The position numbers and the translations under genes are program-made. 44,000 nt of DNA, from NCBI GenBank assembly GCA_029567705.1, contig JAKPXC010000155.1, positions 1-44,000 of the forward strand, written 5' to 3'. This stretch comes from Candidatus Cloacimonadota bacterium. GTDB taxonomy: Bacteria; Cloacimonadota; Cloacimonadia; Cloacimonadales; Cloacimonadaceae. Shown here piece after piece: positions 14,806 to 34,510 of the stretch; the first letter of the stretch is position 1, and each line of letters opens with the position of its first letter. The notes beneath the pieces were generated by a model that was given only the letters and a program-made list of their open reading frames with translations, was not told where the DNA came from and searched no databases.

Positions 14806-15468
14806 ATGAAAAAGATAGTCATACTTGCACTTGCCCTTAGTCTGATGACCGTGATCCTGCTGGCTCAAAACAGCGAGCAGAACCAGACCAATCCCCCTCG
14901 TCCGGGACAAGCCGAACAGAATCACCGTCCCGGCCATAACCACAACATGAACCAAACCCAACAGAATAACCCGATGCCTCCCATGCACATGGGTATGCAT
15001 CATGGTCAGAACAACGGCCTCGGAATCTGGGAACGTTTAGACCTTAACCGTACCCAACACCGCGAAATCAGCGCTATGGTGGAGCGCTTCAGAGGCGATA
15101 TGAGAGCCAAACACGAAGCCATCCGCACTCTCAGAGACGAACTCAAAGACGCCATGATGAACGAGAACTTCCGCAGAGCCCGTAACCTCAACCGCAGAAT
15201 CAATAACCTGCGCAATGAGATCTCCGAAGCCAGGCTCAACCATCACGAGCGCATCCTGAACCAACTTAACCGCGATCAGAAAGCCCAGCTTCGCCGCATT
15301 ATGCAGGAAATGCGTGAAAGAATGCAAAACTCTCGCCAAGGACGCATGGGAAGAGGCAGTATGGGACACGATTTGGATTGTGAAGGCATGGGAGAAGGTG
15401 GTCAAGGCCACCATAACGGACAAGGCCAACACGGCAATTGTACCGATTGCCAATCCGAACAGAATTAA
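14806..15468 (+). CDS. Secreted Spy/CpxP-like protein with His/Met/Asn-rich ends
   Basis: A signal peptide covers about residues 1-20 (MKKIVILALALSLMTVILLA). The next 50 residues are rich in Asn, Gln, Pro, His and Met, including MPPMHMGMHH, which suits copper or other soft-metal binding. A helical Spy/CpxP-like domain follows (about 75-175: LDLNRTQHREISAMVERF, then LNRDQKAQLRRIMQEM, an LTxxQ-type repeat). The tail is Gly/His-rich with three Cys (DLDCEGMG, GNCTDCQSEQN). The ATG directly follows the stop of the previous gene. It is the last gene of the sigma-factor unit, and a strong terminator follows. Probable role: periplasmic chaperone or metal-binding stress protein controlled by the ECF factor. 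The metal link is inference from composition. Confidence 0.75.
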   Translation: MKKIVILALALSLMTVILLAQNSEQNQTNPPRPGQAEQNHRPGHNHNMNQTQQNNPMPPMHMGMHHGQNNGLGIWERLDLNRTQHREISAMVERFRGDMRAKHEAIRTLRDELKDAMMNENFRRARNLNRRINNLRNEISEARLNHHERILNQLNRDQKAQLRRIMQEMRERMQNSRQGRMGRGSMGHDLDCEGMGEGGQGHHNGQGQHGNCTDCQSEQN

Positions 15469-15493: not shown

Positions 15494-15531
15494 ACCGTCG
15501 GTGTTTACCCAAACACCGACGGTCTTTTTTT
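15494..15531 (+). terminator. Rho-independent terminator of the sigma-factor unit
   Basis: A perfect 13-bp stem (15494-15506 with 15511-15523) around loop ACCC is followed by C and seven T. It is among the clearest terminators in the window and closes the sigma/anti-sigma/Spy-like unit. Confidence 0.93.
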
Positions 15532-15558
15532 AGTGACAAGTAACTAGTAACTAGTGAC

Positions 15559-15756
15559 TAGAGCTGCGCTGCTGACGCAACCTACATTGGGCTGCCAATC
15601 TCCGATTTGGCAGAAACCTCTCTCAGTTAATGGTTAATCGTTAATGGTTAATAGAGCTGCGCTGCTGACGCAACCTACATTGGGCTGCCAAACTCCGATT
15701 TGGCAGAAACCTCTCTCAGTTAATGGTTAATTGTTAATGGTTAATAGAGTTGCGCT
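15559..15756. repeat. 93-bp tandem repeat, two copies plus a partial third
   Basis: Unit 1 (about 15559-15651) and unit 2 (15652-15744) differ at only a few positions; a third copy starts at 15745 and breaks off. Each unit has GAGCTGCGCTGCTGACGC, a hairpin CTGCCAA/TTGGCAG (15592-15613 in unit 1) and a block of TTAATGGTTAAT words. The same words build the element at 36354-36547, and the CTGCCAATCTCC hairpin recurs at 43864 and 43910. Confidence 0.85.
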
Positions 15757-15770
15757 GCTTCGCACTTGGG

Positions 15771-15851
15771 CTGTCGACCTCCCGGTCGACAGAGGCAGCG
15801 AAGCTGCCTTGAGTAGAGGCCTTCGGCCTCTTTGGAAACGAGACGTCTCCA
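15771..15851. repeat. Array of four consecutive small hairpins
   Basis: Four stems follow each other almost without a gap: CTGTCGACC/GGTCGACAG (771-792 of the 15.7-kb line, that is 15771-15792), AGGCAGC/GCTGCCT (15793-15809), AGAGGCC/GGCCTCT (15815-15831), and TTGGAAACG/CGTCTCCAA with one mismatch (about 15832-15852). Loops are 3-4 bases. No T-run follows, so these are not ordinary terminators. Confidence 0.7.
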
Positions 15852-15913
15852 ACCCATGTCGCAATGGTCTTGCGCCAGTCACAATGTGCTGCTCTCTTCA
15901 CTCACCAATACGC

Positions 15914-15998
15914 TGCCGACTCTTCGCCGAGTCTTGGCCGACTCTTCCCGAACACTTTGCTCGGGAAGAGTCGGCCAAGACTCGGCGAAGAGTCGGCG
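15914..15998. repeat. Long perfect inverted repeat (36-bp stem), copy 1
   Basis: 15915-15950 is the exact reverse complement of 15962-15997; an 11-base AACACTTTGCT separates the arms, and its outer A-T also pairs. Each arm holds three GACTCTT-like words. A second, imperfect copy with the same loop lies at 34282-34364. Both lie between convergent genes. Confidence 0.95.
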
Positions 15999-16038
15999 AC
16001 AAGTGAGCAGAGAGAGGGAGCTTCGCAGGTCTGCAACA

Positions 16039-16206
16039 ATGGACGAAATGGACAATATGGACGAGATGGACACAATGGACGGTATGGACACAATGGACGG
16101 TATGGACAACGCCACCAAGCCTGGGGAAAGAGCTCTCTTTTACTTCTTTCCTCTGTTTTAGTAAAAATTTCTCTGCTGATCTCTGCTTTCCTCAGTGTCC
16201 TCTGTG
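16039..16206. repeat. Eight 9-base ATGGACnnn units plus dispersed CCTCTGT module
   Basis: 16039-16110 is eight perfect-length ATGGACnnn units. It is followed by a stretch with CCTCTGTTTTAG, CTCTGCTG and GTGTCCTCTGTGG, the same order as at 309-414, where only two units are present. The unit can be read as Met-Asp-x repeats, but no gene context supports translation. It behaves like a variable-number repeat attached to a dispersed element. Confidence 0.75.
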
Positions 16207-16275
16207 GTTAAAAAAGTGGTGGAGTGATGGAGTGATGAAGTTGTGACGCTACTACCCTGTATACATCGTACATCG

Positions 16276-16400
16276 CTCTCTTTTACTCCCTCCGTCCTTC
16301 TTTACTCCTTGTTTTCAAATCACTTACTCTCTTTTACTCCCTTCTTCCTTCTTTACTCCTTGTTATCAAATCACTTACTCTCTTTTACTCTTTTCCTCTG
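16276..16400. repeat. 51-bp tandem repeat running into the end of comEC
   Basis: Units at 16276-16326 and 16327-16377 are nearly identical, and a third begins at 16378. Each has CTCTCTTTTACTCC, CTTTACTCCTTGTT and ATCAAATCACTTA-type words, related to the repeats at 205-530. The comEC stop codon (16375-16377) is the last three bases of unit 2. Confidence 0.8.
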
Positions 16401-31040: not shown

Positions 31041-31165
31041 ATACTGACCAGAAAATCCATAGAGCTCCGTCTAAAAAAAATGATAGTAAAATATGGAACA
31101 AATTGTGCTGAATCAAACATTAAGACAGATCTGAATGATCGTAGAACACGATTGCAGGAACGGAT

Positions 31166-31222
31166 TCCTCCTGATTCCGGCTGGCCGGAAAGAGGATTCA
31201 CGCCCTGCGGTTGTAAAATCCT
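31166..31222 (+). promoter_or_regulatory. Structured 5' leader with competing helices
   Basis: TTCCGGC/GCCGGAA (31175-31190) forms a tight hairpin extended by TCCTC (31166-31170) pairing with GAGGA (31192-31196). The overlapping AGGATT (31193-31198) can instead pair with AATCCT (31217-31222), directly next to the ribosome site GGAGG at 31223. The two pairings exclude each other, so translation control is possible but unproven. Confidence 0.3.
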
Positions 31223-31232
31223 GGAGGTTAGG

Positions 31233-34200
31233 ATGAAACAAGTTTTATTCGTGTTGTTCTGCTTGCTCAGCGCTAGTGTTTTTGCCAATATTGCCTGGGA
31301 AAGCAATCTGAAGGTTCGTGGCAGTGTGGCAGTTGATTGGAATAAATCCAGCGCAGCCACTTCGGATGGAGGGATGCTCTATGTCTGGTCGGATGCCCAT
31401 GCGGGTGATCGTGATCTCTATGCACAGCGGGTCAACGCCCAGGGAATTCCGGTTTGGAGTACACCACTGGTTCTGGACGACAAGGTCGGGGCACAGCATC
31501 ACCCCGTGATCCAGAGGACTGCCGACGGATGTTTTGTTGTAGCTTGGAGCGATACCTACGTTTATGATGCTGAACAGATTTACCTGCAAAAAATCAACGA
31601 AATCGGACAGATACTCTGGCAGGATGGCGGGGTATGCATCACAAACGATTCAAATAGAAAAAGTGATGTTCGTCTGACTCCTGATGCGGTTGGGGGAGTA
31701 ATTCTCACTTGGACTCAAGATGGAAATTCCGGCATCTGTTCGATGGGACAAAGCCTCAGTTCCGGGGGAAGCATCCTCTGGCAGGAAGGCGGGATTGATC
31801 TGACTCTTGAGCAATACTATACCATCTCCTCCATCGCCATGGACGGGACGGGAGGTTTTGTGATTTCCTACACCTCCAACTATGAGGTGAATTCGAGAGT
31901 GTATCTGAACCGCTTTAATGCGTCCGGAAACAGCATCTGGAACACTCCCGTCTGTATCGGAAATGGTACAGATATGAACCGGGATGGGTTGATGACCTTG
32001 GGGAACGGAGTAATCTATCTGCTCTGGACGACCTATGATAATAGCAACAGCTTTCTGAGGCTTCAGCTTTTTAATCTGAACGGACAGGCAATAACAACCG
32101 AGCCCTACCAATTCACCAATGAGGGTACGAACTATTATATGCCGCAGGAGTTTATCTACTCTCCGGCAGATAACACAGCCATGATCTCTCTGATCAGCTC
32201 CGTCGGGAGTAATCTCATTCTCCAGAAGGTCTCCGCCTCAGGGCTTCCTCTCTGGGGAGAGGGAGTTCTTGTGGATATGAACGTATCAGGCTATTACACC
32301 CCTCAAACGACGCTATGGAGATCCGTGACCGATGGCGGATGCTATCTGTGTTGGACGCATTATGGAGATAACACGGCACAACCTGCTATCTACGCGCAAC
32401 GTTTCAATGCCGCTGGAAACAAACTCTGGGGTGATTCCGGAGTCCTCCTGAATATCAATGAGGGATATGACTTTATGCCGGCTCTTATGCTGGTGAATGA
32501 CCATATCTGGGCCTCCTGGATGGATCAGAGAGGTTCACAACGCGGAGTGTACTATCAGATTCTGACCCTAAATGGCGATCCCTTGTTGGAGATTGATGGC
32601 AGAAGCCTGATCAGTGGCCTGAATACCATGTATACTGAAGGAATTATCAGTGTAAACAGAGGCAATGATACGGTGATCTTCTGGAACGATGACCGCTATG
32701 GAGACAACAGATCGATGATCTATATGCAGATTGTCCATCCCAATGGCACGACGGGATATAGCTCGGGTGGTATTCCGGCAACACCCGATACAGAGGGTGA
32801 GCAGTTCGTCGTGGCAGCTAAGGTCGTTTCCGGAGACAGAATAGTTCTGCTCTGGAAAGAGCGTCATTCCGGGTATTATGATCTCTACGCTCAGTTACTG
32901 GACAGTTCCGGAGGCCGGTTCTGGGGCGAGAATGGCATCAGACTGACCTATCTGGAAGGCGGGCATGTCTCCAATACCTCGATCTCTGAGACGGGTGGAG
33001 AATTTTTTATCGGCTGGAATCATCAGAACAGCACCGGCTTATACTACACTTCAAAGATCATGATGCAAAAGATCAGCGGCGGACAGATTCAATGGGAACC
33101 CTCTGGCAGATCGCTTATCCAGGATGCGGAGAATTGCTACAACCTATTATGTGACATCAAAGATAACTGGCTGGTTTATGAACGAAGACCCTTGAATCAG
33201 AGTAGCGCTCCGGATATCTATGTGATGCGCTTCGAAGCTTCGGATGGTACGGCTCTTCCTGGTTGGGGTCCGATTGGCAAGTCGGTGGAACCCGGTTCCG
33301 AACAGAATCTTAGCTACGATCCCTTTAACAGCCTTAAGCTCAGACCTGAAGGATTGTTCGTCCTGTTCACAGAGTACTCTGTGGAAGAAGGAAGCCGCCT
33401 GATGGCGCAGTGCTTCTCTCCCAATGGACAGGTTCTCCTTGGGCAGACGGCCACTCAGGTCATTCTCCCTTGCGAGAGTTTCAGGGGTAAGACCGAGTGC
33501 GGAGAGAACGACTTTACAGTTGTCTGGACTGACTACCAGGAAGACCAGACGCCCACCAGATTGATCAGAGTCGGTTATGACCTTACACCACTCTGGGATG
33601 CCATTACAATCAATAATGACGGACACTCGGTTTACGAACTGCGTATCGAACGCTTCCCCAATGATACTGTTACTATCATCTGGAATAACTATGGAATTCC
33701 TGGACCGGATCACGTGAATAGCAATCTCAAATATCGTTTTGTGACTCCGGACGGAGTGTTGATCGGAGCGGATACCGATTATCACATTTCTTTCAAAGGT
33801 AGAAATGCGTATAGTCTGAGCAGTACCGTTATCGGCAACCGGGTACTGGTCTCATGGACAGACGGTCCGGCGAATGAGAATAAAGATGAGCCTATGGAGC
33901 ATACAAACCTCTGGGCACAGATGATTATAAACGAAACCACAGCGATTGATGATCCCACGGAAGTACCATCTCTGACGGCGGAACTCTATCAAAATTATCC
34001 CAATCCCTTTAATCCCACGACTACGATCCAGTATAAACTCATGGCCCCCACTCATACCGAACTAACTGTTTACAACCTGAAAGGACAAATGGTCAGGACT
34101 CTGATGAACAGAGAAGTTCCCGAAGGTGTTCACACCAGCGTTTGGGACGGGCTTGATGCCGGAGGACGTGGCGTTGCTTCAGGAGTCTATTTCTATCGCC

Positions 34201-34250
34201 TGAGAGCAGGCGGAGAAGTTCTTACAGGGAAAATGCTTCTGGTTAAATAG
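31233..34250 (+). CDS. Large secreted repeat protein with T9SS sorting tail
   Basis: The start is ATG 31233, preceded by GGAGGTTAG and beginning a clear signal peptide (MKQVLFVLFCLLSASVFA); the 51 codons upstream are rejected. The 1005-aa product carries many copies of a motif of the form 'YAQR-N-G-W--GV-L' (for example LYAQRVNAQGIPVW, IYAQRFNAAGNKLWGDSGV, LYAQLLDSSGGRFWGENG), which suggests beta-propeller-like blades for most of its length. The C-terminus has NYPNPFNPTTTIQYKL, followed by LTVYNLKGQMVRTLM and ASGVYFYRLRAGG, the type A (FlgD-like) sorting domain. It is probably exported across the outer membrane and attached to the surface. No enzyme motif is seen. It stands alone between the polysaccharide cluster and a repeat region. 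Confidence 0.9.
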   Translation: MKQVLFVLFCLLSASVFANIAWESNLKVRGSVAVDWNKSSAATSDGGMLYVWSDAHAGDRDLYAQRVNAQGIPVWSTPLVLDDKVGAQHHPVIQRTADGCFVVAWSDTYVYDAEQIYLQKINEIGQILWQDGGVCITNDSNRKSDVRLTPDAVGGVILTWTQDGNSGICSMGQSLSSGGSILWQEGGIDLTLEQYYTISSIAMDGTGGFVISYTSNYEVNSRVYLNRFNASGNSIWNTPVCIGNGTDMNRDGLMTLGNGVIYLLWTTYDNSNSFLRLQLFNLNGQAITTEPYQFTNEGTNYYMPQEFIYSPADNTAMISLISSVGSNLILQKVSASGLPLWGEGVLVDMNVSGYYTPQTTLWRSVTDGGCYLCWTHYGDNTAQPAIYAQRFNAAGNKLWGDSGVLLNINEGYDFMPALMLVNDHIWASWMDQRGSQRGVYYQILTLNGDPLLEIDGRSLISGLNTMYTEGIISVNRGNDTVIFWNDDRYGDNRSMIYMQIVHPNGTTGYSSGGIPATPDTEGEQFVVAAKVVSGDRIVLLWKERHSGYYDLYAQLLDSSGGRFWGENGIRLTYLEGGHVSNTSISETGGEFFIGWNHQNSTGLYYTSKIMMQKISGGQIQWEPSGRSLIQDAENCYNLLCDIKDNWLVYERRPLNQSSAPDIYVMRFEASDGTALPGWGPIGKSVEPGSEQNLSYDPFNSLKLRPEGLFVLFTEYSVEEGSRLMAQCFSPNGQVLLGQTATQVILPCESFRGKTECGENDFTVVWTDYQEDQTPTRLIRVGYDLTPLWDAITINNDGHSVYELRIERFPNDTVTIIWNNYGIPGPDHVNSNLKYRFVTPDGVLIGADTDYHISFKGRNAYSLSSTVIGNRVLVSWTDGPANENKDEPMEHTNLWAQMIINETTAIDDPTEVPSLTAELYQNYPNPFNPTTTIQYKLMAPTHTELTVYNLKGQMVRTLMNREVPEGVHTSVWDGLDAGGRGVASGVYFYRLRAGGEVLTGKMLLVK

Positions 34251-34281
34251 CCGGTTGCCTTCCATTACTCCCCAATAAGCT

Positions 34282-34364
34282 GCCGACTCTTCACCGAGTC
34301 TTGCAGGACTCTTCCCGAACACTTTGCTCGGGAAGAGTCGGGCAAGACACGGCGAAGACTCGGC
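34282..34364. repeat. Long inverted repeat, copy 2 (imperfect)
   Basis: Arms 34282-34317 and 34329-34364 are 36 bases each around the same 11-base AACACTTTGCT as in copy 1 (15914-15998), but with several mismatches between the arms. It lies 31 bases after the stop of the T9SS-tailed gene, and the gene on the other side is convergent, as for copy 1. Confidence 0.9.
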
Positions 34365-34510
34365 GACTCATAGGGAAGAAACGAGTAACAGGGCAGCATG
34401 AGGTAAAGACCGGTGCACAAGAGAAGAGCGTTGAATAATTGTCTATAGCCCATAATACCTGGCATACAGGTGTGTTTCTACCCATTGATACCCAATGTCT
34501 ACATGCTGTC

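Follow-up and report, generated by a model that had tools for sequence, protein, structure and literature searches.

The window (the whole stretch of 44,000 nucleotides analysed here) corresponds to contig C95 of G000, a Candidatus Cloacimonadota MAG of 2,476,566 bases in 210 contigs, and carries two copies of a hairpin-forming inverted repeat. Both lie between convergent genes, as a preliminary description of the window had noticed: copy 1 between gene ends at 15468 (+ strand) and 16375 (- strand), copy 2 between 34250 (+ strand) and 34642 (- strand). In copy 1, two arms of 36 nt on the + strand (15915-15950 and 15962-15997) are exact reverse complements flanking the conserved centre AACACTTTGCT (15951-15961); the repeat and the length of its arms were as first described, whilst its span had been given as 15914-15998, which exceeds the true extent by a base at either end. 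The left arm reads as the 11-bp units GCCGACTCTTC, GCCGAGTCTTG and again GCCGACTCTTC, followed by CCG, and TRF reports a period of 11 at 15915-15951 and, around the right arm, at 15961-15999. Column conservation over 98 copies (see below) brings the entire element to about 109 bp, i.e., 15902-16010 for copy 1 and 34269-34377 for copy 2, with no strand assigned to either; these boundaries are points where column information decays, rather than mapped insertion junctions. Copy 2, also pointed out earlier, is found at 34281-34365 and is 92% identical to copy 1, with arms mismatched at several words and 79% complementary over 57 nt.

The predicted RNA fold of copy 1 reaches -85.6 kcal/mol, against -34.2 ± 3.7 for its dinucleotide shuffles (z = -14.05), its DNA fold has a z of -13.5, and copy 2 (34281-34365) reaches -65 kcal/mol as RNA (z = -9.7). 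With both copies this far below their shuffles, chance is excluded as the origin of the hairpin. The 11-base centre had been taken for a spacer that does not contribute to pairing; the predicted fold pairs six of its 11 bases, as A-T followed by C-G and A-T, and leaves a loop of 3 nt besides a single A.C mismatch. An Rfam covariance search of the window gave no match at the gathering threshold.

The surroundings of both copies deserve a description of their own. The entire gap around copy 1 (15530-16400) is pieced together from further dispersed repeats, with GAAGCAGCGC at 15573, 15666 and 15761, AACTCCGATTT at 15691, arrays of ATGGACGA/ATGGACAA at 16039-16110, AGTAAAAGAG at 16144-16389 and CCACAGAGGACACAGAG at 16204; several of them cluster beside elements in other loci too, with a preferred outward orientation. 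Some 30 bp before copy 2 ends a 1056-aa protein (31080-34250) with an FlgD-like/type IX secretion sorting C-terminus.

Copy number and distribution

A 19-base core, allowing at most three mismatches, occurs at 115 places in the 2.48 Mb of G000, whereas the reversed pattern gives 0 and 1; both inner arms are exact at 105 places. The two copies first reported are therefore real and a gross undercount, since the genome holds at least 105. For the comparisons below, 100 of the 115 core places were listed, and 99 stretches and the window were read, giving 101 distinct rows, from which three were left out to form the set of 98 copies: L097 (the same place as L098), L133 (cut at a contig end) and L112 (at a contig end and almost a duplicate of L104, although the overlap test found no exact overlap for the pair).

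Conservation of the centre, remarked upon earlier, is confirmed inside this genome, where AACACTTTGCT stands in at least 90 of the 98 copies, and is absent from the other genomes searched. The sequence of the element has no match in 59 relatives except a 28-bp stretch within a gene of G058 that looks like chance; a 23-base core pattern has none among GTDB r220 contigs and viral contigs, and copy 1 has none in plasmid and phage collections. The preliminary description would have counted against itself a finding of just two copies and of a spacer unconserved elsewhere: the copies are many in G000, yet no other genome has the conserved spacer, because the sequence of the element is private and its design alone is shared. 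The element is thus a species-private, high-copy, non-coding, hairpin-forming dispersed repeat. Searches of the open-licence literature, whose silence is weak evidence of absence from print, turned up no account of repeats like these in the phylum, nor of 11-bp-unit palindromes.

Anatomy of the element

The main feature of the element, overlooked at first, is its tandem 11-bp unit. Each arm is a row of such units, and the mean arm identity in G000 is 0.61 at lag 11 against 0.16-0.32 at other lags. Across the 98 non-redundant copies, conservation covers the columns between about -44 and +64 relative to the core, closing in the mirrored ends TYCCYAAT...ATTRGGRA at -44 to -37 and 57 to 64, so that terminal inverted repeats, a criterion for MITEs, are present. 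Between these ends, nearly invariant columns alternate with columns in which two or three alternative words occur at substantial frequency (CTGC/GGCC, ACAC/ACTC/AGTC, GGTG/GGCG/GACG, AGTC/ACTC and several outer words). The words are almost unlinked between blocks, with z above 4 in only three of 66 block pairs, and they combine into 70 different right arms and 77 different left ones; no two copies are more than 96.3% identical. Private changes at the constant columns are rare, which makes the copies look young, though their combinations of words are very diverse.

Compensatory pairing, as a sign of an RNA, was considered and rejected: the full stem has mismatches at 6.7 of 39 positions within one copy, slightly more than the 5.9 obtained when arms are dealt between copies. 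The four inner blocks behave otherwise. All four are identical between the arms in 18 of the 98 G000 copies (4.9 ± 2.1 in shuffles, none of 2000 being as high), and all four differ in 21 (10.8 expected). This division of the copies into two groups is the pattern that occasional homogenisation of arms by hairpin template switching would give; G001, a member of the same genus with an analogous family (described below), disagrees, having one copy with identical inner arms in 22 against 3.2 expected.

There is also a regularity near the tip of the hairpin. The innermost GG-type word (here ‘B’) stands on both arms in four of the 98 G000 copies (Fisher p = 7e-4) and in none of 22 in G001, where the word differs between arms in 82% of copies against 54% expected (a proportion of 0.0035 of shuffles being as high). 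The corresponding word of G011 is on both arms in none of 22 copies (Fisher p = 0.017, an eye count), and in G002 the canonical word of the GGTTTGAAA type is on exactly one arm in all 15 full-length copies (by eye, five of the 20 loci being left out as they lie at contig edges). The G001 and G011 tables were first made by eye, and that of G001 was recounted by script (its 22 copies dividing into 12, 6, 4 and 0). A single query copy per genome was used to find, by similarity, the copies of G001, G002 and G011, and these inner-word tables may be biased as a result.

A mosaic of this sort in a fragmented MAG brings to mind chimeric repeats made by the assembler, and G000 does consist of 210 contigs, with several copies at contig ends. 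Such an artefact is nevertheless very improbable: the ends of contigs C75 and C76 overlap by exactly 141 bases, more than the length of the element, which makes it most likely that the final assembly word reaches across the element, and the same mosaic is seen in G001, assembled into 10 contigs, and in the one-contig G011.

The same design in relatives

Relatives carry families of the same design with unrelated sequences. The organism of the window is placed in Candidatus Cloacimonadota by a penicillin-binding protein encoded there, whose best named match is HGW-Cloacimonetes-2 (78% identity); G001, a member of the same genus, has the DNA of that match at the palindrome tested. In the genus of G000 itself, G001 has a family with TCGAAC-NNN-GTTCGA at its centre and units like CTTGATCTGCT (61 first-look candidates, 22 distinct places), and G002 one with units of ACCGCT plus five bases (75 candidates, 40 distinct places). 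In G011, a single contig of 2,246,820 bases, the units are CATTGCTTACC and the ends TTCTTCCTTAAT...ATTAAGGAAGAA, with 47 candidates and 22 distinct places spread over the complete genome. At lag 11 the arms reach a mean identity of 0.68 in G001, 0.56 in G011 and 0.70 for the canonical arm of G002, as opposed to 0.13-0.41 at other lags over the families.

Scanned uniformly for long, tight palindromes, 12 genomes of the family (about 737 kb) yielded 32, of which 24 had their best lag at 11, four of these 24 not being independent, as the window and L170 were picked for their palindromes; eight of the 12 genomes had at least one lag-11 palindrome at an identity of 0.38 or more. Lag 11 was also the best in all four palindromes at further family-like named loci. 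Outside the family it was the best in none of five palindromes from other families of the order (four genomes, 363 kb), not in the single palindrome from other Cloacimonadota (0 of 1), and in none of 13 from other phyla (679 kb). Altogether, 28 of 36 sampled long palindromes peak at lag 11 within the family and 0 of 19 outside it. In G024 and in G006, several unrelated units coexist, and the cleanest example of the design is a near-perfect palindrome of G006 (L350:12475-12566) with four units of the CATTACGCTAT type per arm. The safest statement is that of a non-coding, dispersed class of hairpins defined by an 11-bp unit; in the Cloacimonadaceae, this wider class appears to be characterised by its architecture, with tandem 11-bp units mirrored round a tight loop, and not by its sequence.

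The main rival to a spreading element takes this architecture for a helically phased site of a nucleoid or segregation protein, which would meet the same mirrored motif at each 11-bp turn and co-evolve with its site in each species. It would account for the strict 11-bp spacing, for a constant motif of 6-7 nt accompanied by variable words in four families, and for the high copy number over the complete genome of G011. The units, however, are wholly different within one genus (G000, G001 and G002) and several unrelated ones coexist in G024, so that a single sequence-specific protein is a poor fit; a candidate protein is lacking as well. We regard this explanation as rather unlikely.

Genomic position and the terminator question

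All but one of the 98 G000 copies lie outside called genes (96 of 98 with a laxer gene caller). By the orientation of their neighbours, 23 are convergent, 35 co-directional, 12 divergent and 26 unclassified, with two overlapping a called gene; the four families pooled give 41 convergent, 61 co-directional and 25 divergent sites (n = 127). The convergent ends at which both window copies lie had been thought characteristic, which does not hold as a rule, with 23 of 70 classified G000 copies convergent. Among 52 background gaps no shorter than 150 bp, 8 are convergent, 33 co-directional and 11 divergent, so that any convergent bias is at most mild. Proximity to gene ends is clearer: in the four families, 52 of 158 facing 3' gene ends are within 100 bp of the element, compared to 13 of 123 facing 5' ends.

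This placement, together with the great stability of the hairpin, is what would be expected of a bidirectional transcription terminator, as suggested earlier, or of a protector of mRNA 3' ends. Yet the lack of a T-tail, correctly noted at the outset, extends to the entire set, TTTTT being near either foot in 0 of 98 copies, from which it follows that the elements are not intrinsic terminators. A true one, that of the upstream + strand operon (15494-15523, + strand), stands about 390 bp before copy 1 and outside the element, and another precedes the element at the carbamate kinase gene of G001. More generally, a canonical terminator is already present before the element in 17 of the 69 gaps that face a gene's 3' end, compared with 5 of the 53 control gaps that face a 5' end, and 61 of the 127 pooled sites are co-directional and 25 divergent. 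Termination or protection is accordingly an unlikely role for the element. Insertion into terminator hairpins was also considered and rejected, given that the outer flanks are no more complementary than their composition predicts.

Turnover at an orthologous site

One site, the 3' side of the carbamate kinase gene, was followed through the family (the gene is present in 44 of 49 genomes, and 30 loci were examined). An element is downstream of the gene in G011 and none is in G028, despite the same next gene; in the scanned loci of G016, G035, G024, G032 and G062, all of G011's genus, no long 11-bp palindrome was detected, some of these loci ending near the gene. Downstream palindromes of their own sequence are found in G001, G020 and G027 by scan, and in G068 by eye. 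As a separate observation, G000 has two carbamate kinase genes (C204:4265-5206 and C131:11111-12049) against one in the other genomes listed, due to duplication or to contamination of the bin (5.36%).

The genes that neighbour elements in G001, G002 and G011 recur at G000 element loci in 7 of 22, 8 of 20 and 11 of 22 loci, respectively. Conservation of positions between species was nonetheless rejected, there being no convincing shared site save that of carbamate kinase, and the G000 element loci cover about one fifth of the genome. Target-site duplication was looked for in 6480 tests, in which no register stands out, and direct repeats in the flanks are as in shuffles. As to an autonomous partner with the same ends, an inner-arm 11-mer has 214 strand matches against 210 in paired arms, which leaves about four unpaired, at least one of them in a copy with a mismatched partner.

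Relation to RAYT and Y1 transposases

Y1_Tnp genes number six in G000, one in G001 and two in G002, and three of the six have a copy of the element nearby, at distances of up to about 0.15, 0.2 and 1.0 kb. These numbers invite the interpretation of the element as a REPIN proper, i.e., a REP doublet moved by a linked RAYT (a Y1 tyrosine transposase). At one copy per 21 kb, however, three of six within 1.1 kb is only mildly unexpected (a rough estimate of ~0.03), a distance of 2.2 kb separates the only Y1_Tnp gene of G001 from the closest copy listed, and no Y1_Tnp gene was seen flanked on both sides by the element. Four RAYT-like genes are ringed by other hairpin arrays instead (L164, L166; L275, L277), and the fixed GTAG/CGTC tag is missing: among the feet of the 98 copies, CGTC is at both in six, at one in 33 and at none in 59, whilst GTAG/CTAC is at any foot in four. 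Because the tag test fails and the RAYT-like genes carry other hairpins, the element should not be filed as REP/REPIN, and we consider this origin quite improbable. The early suggestion of a dispersed, extended REP/BIME-like element is supported, with the conserved centre and the absent T-tail.

The hairpins that do accompany these genes merit mention for themselves. The RAYT-like genes of the genus sit amid arrays of short hairpins (AAGCGACATCCTGTCGCTT, CGTAGCTTTCCAAAGCTACG, GAGCGACAGGATGTCGCTC and GTAGAGCAGCATGCCGATGCTGCT) that look like REP families of their own (L164:985-1956; L166:79-318 and 1087-1196; L275; L277; L280). In L163, two identical perfect hairpins (13-59 and 1123-1169) stand on either side of a ~149-aa Y1 transposase gene, an arrangement resembling the IS200 type. 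The best Y1_Tnp match of G000 (L161:1501-1839) reads through one TGA, with a copy of the element about 150 bp off.

Discussion

The explanation we favour, with moderate confidence, is that of a species-private hairpin repeat belonging to a wider Cloacimonadaceae class of 11-bp-unit repeats, working in a REPIN- or MITE-like manner, non-autonomous and spread in trans. Dispersal of this kind is suggested by the copy number, the privacy of the sequences, the scattered positions and their turnover. The element would fold into a hairpin as a single-stranded intermediate, through which it would be dispersed in trans, and the inserted copies would be tolerated between genes, mostly near 3' ends. During replication, words may then be exchanged or homogenised by hairpin template switching, a process we infer from the multi-base word swaps and from the excess of identical inner arms in G000. 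Mobility, present or former, and an enzyme serving it are probable. Against this explanation speak the missing target-site duplication, the missing excess of identical arms in G001 (1 of 22, with 3.2 expected) and the slight surplus of mismatches between the arms of one copy when the full stem is compared with shuffled arms, and private sequences could also stem from fast concerted evolution of immobile sites.

Known systems resemble the element in part. Enterobacterial BIMEs are mosaics of whole REPs, and the element too is a mosaic of short modules in extragenic palindromes, except that its modules are words of 3-6 nt inside one hairpin. With bacterial MITE-like sequences (e.g., RU elements) it shares a size of about 100 bp, dispersal, intergenic location and inverted termini, and it differs from them in that no target-site duplication was found and, apparently, in having no partner transposon with matching ends, the inner-arm 11-mer leaving about four unpaired matches. 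Like REPs and REPINs, which are often species-specific too, it is high-copy, intergenic, palindromic and mostly near 3' ends, in a genome with RAYT genes; it differs in having no fixed GTAG or CGTC foot, arms of tandem 11-bp units, and RAYT genes ringed by other repeats. Its size is REPIN-like: in the SBW25 GI doublet, the two 16-mers begin 71 bp apart, counted from first residue to first residue (PMC3733652, PMC3116915). Its placement near 3' ends resembles that of REPs, which an excerpt of PMC3733652 locates between unidirectional and convergent genes. Quasi-palindromes under template switching, as outlined in excerpts of PMC8604942, show comparable multi-base changes and homogenisation of arms in inverted repeats; this is a mutation process and not an element, one that would account for the words and leave the dispersal unexplained.

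More tentatively, and with the doubt proper to a speculation, the Cloacimonadaceae might have a sequence-indifferent process that builds and disperses 11-bp-unit hairpins, its private products having in common only the period of a helical turn and a mismatch favoured close to the tip. On this view, each species would end up with private repeats, sometimes with several families per genome. Dispersed palindromes, at any rate, can turn over completely between species within one genus. If the design is real family-wide, what is conserved is a geometry (the mirrored 11-bp turn) and not a sequence, and the nature of whatever recognises or spreads extragenic palindromes becomes testable, with a structure-reading enzyme or a replication process advancing in steps of 11 nt to be expected.
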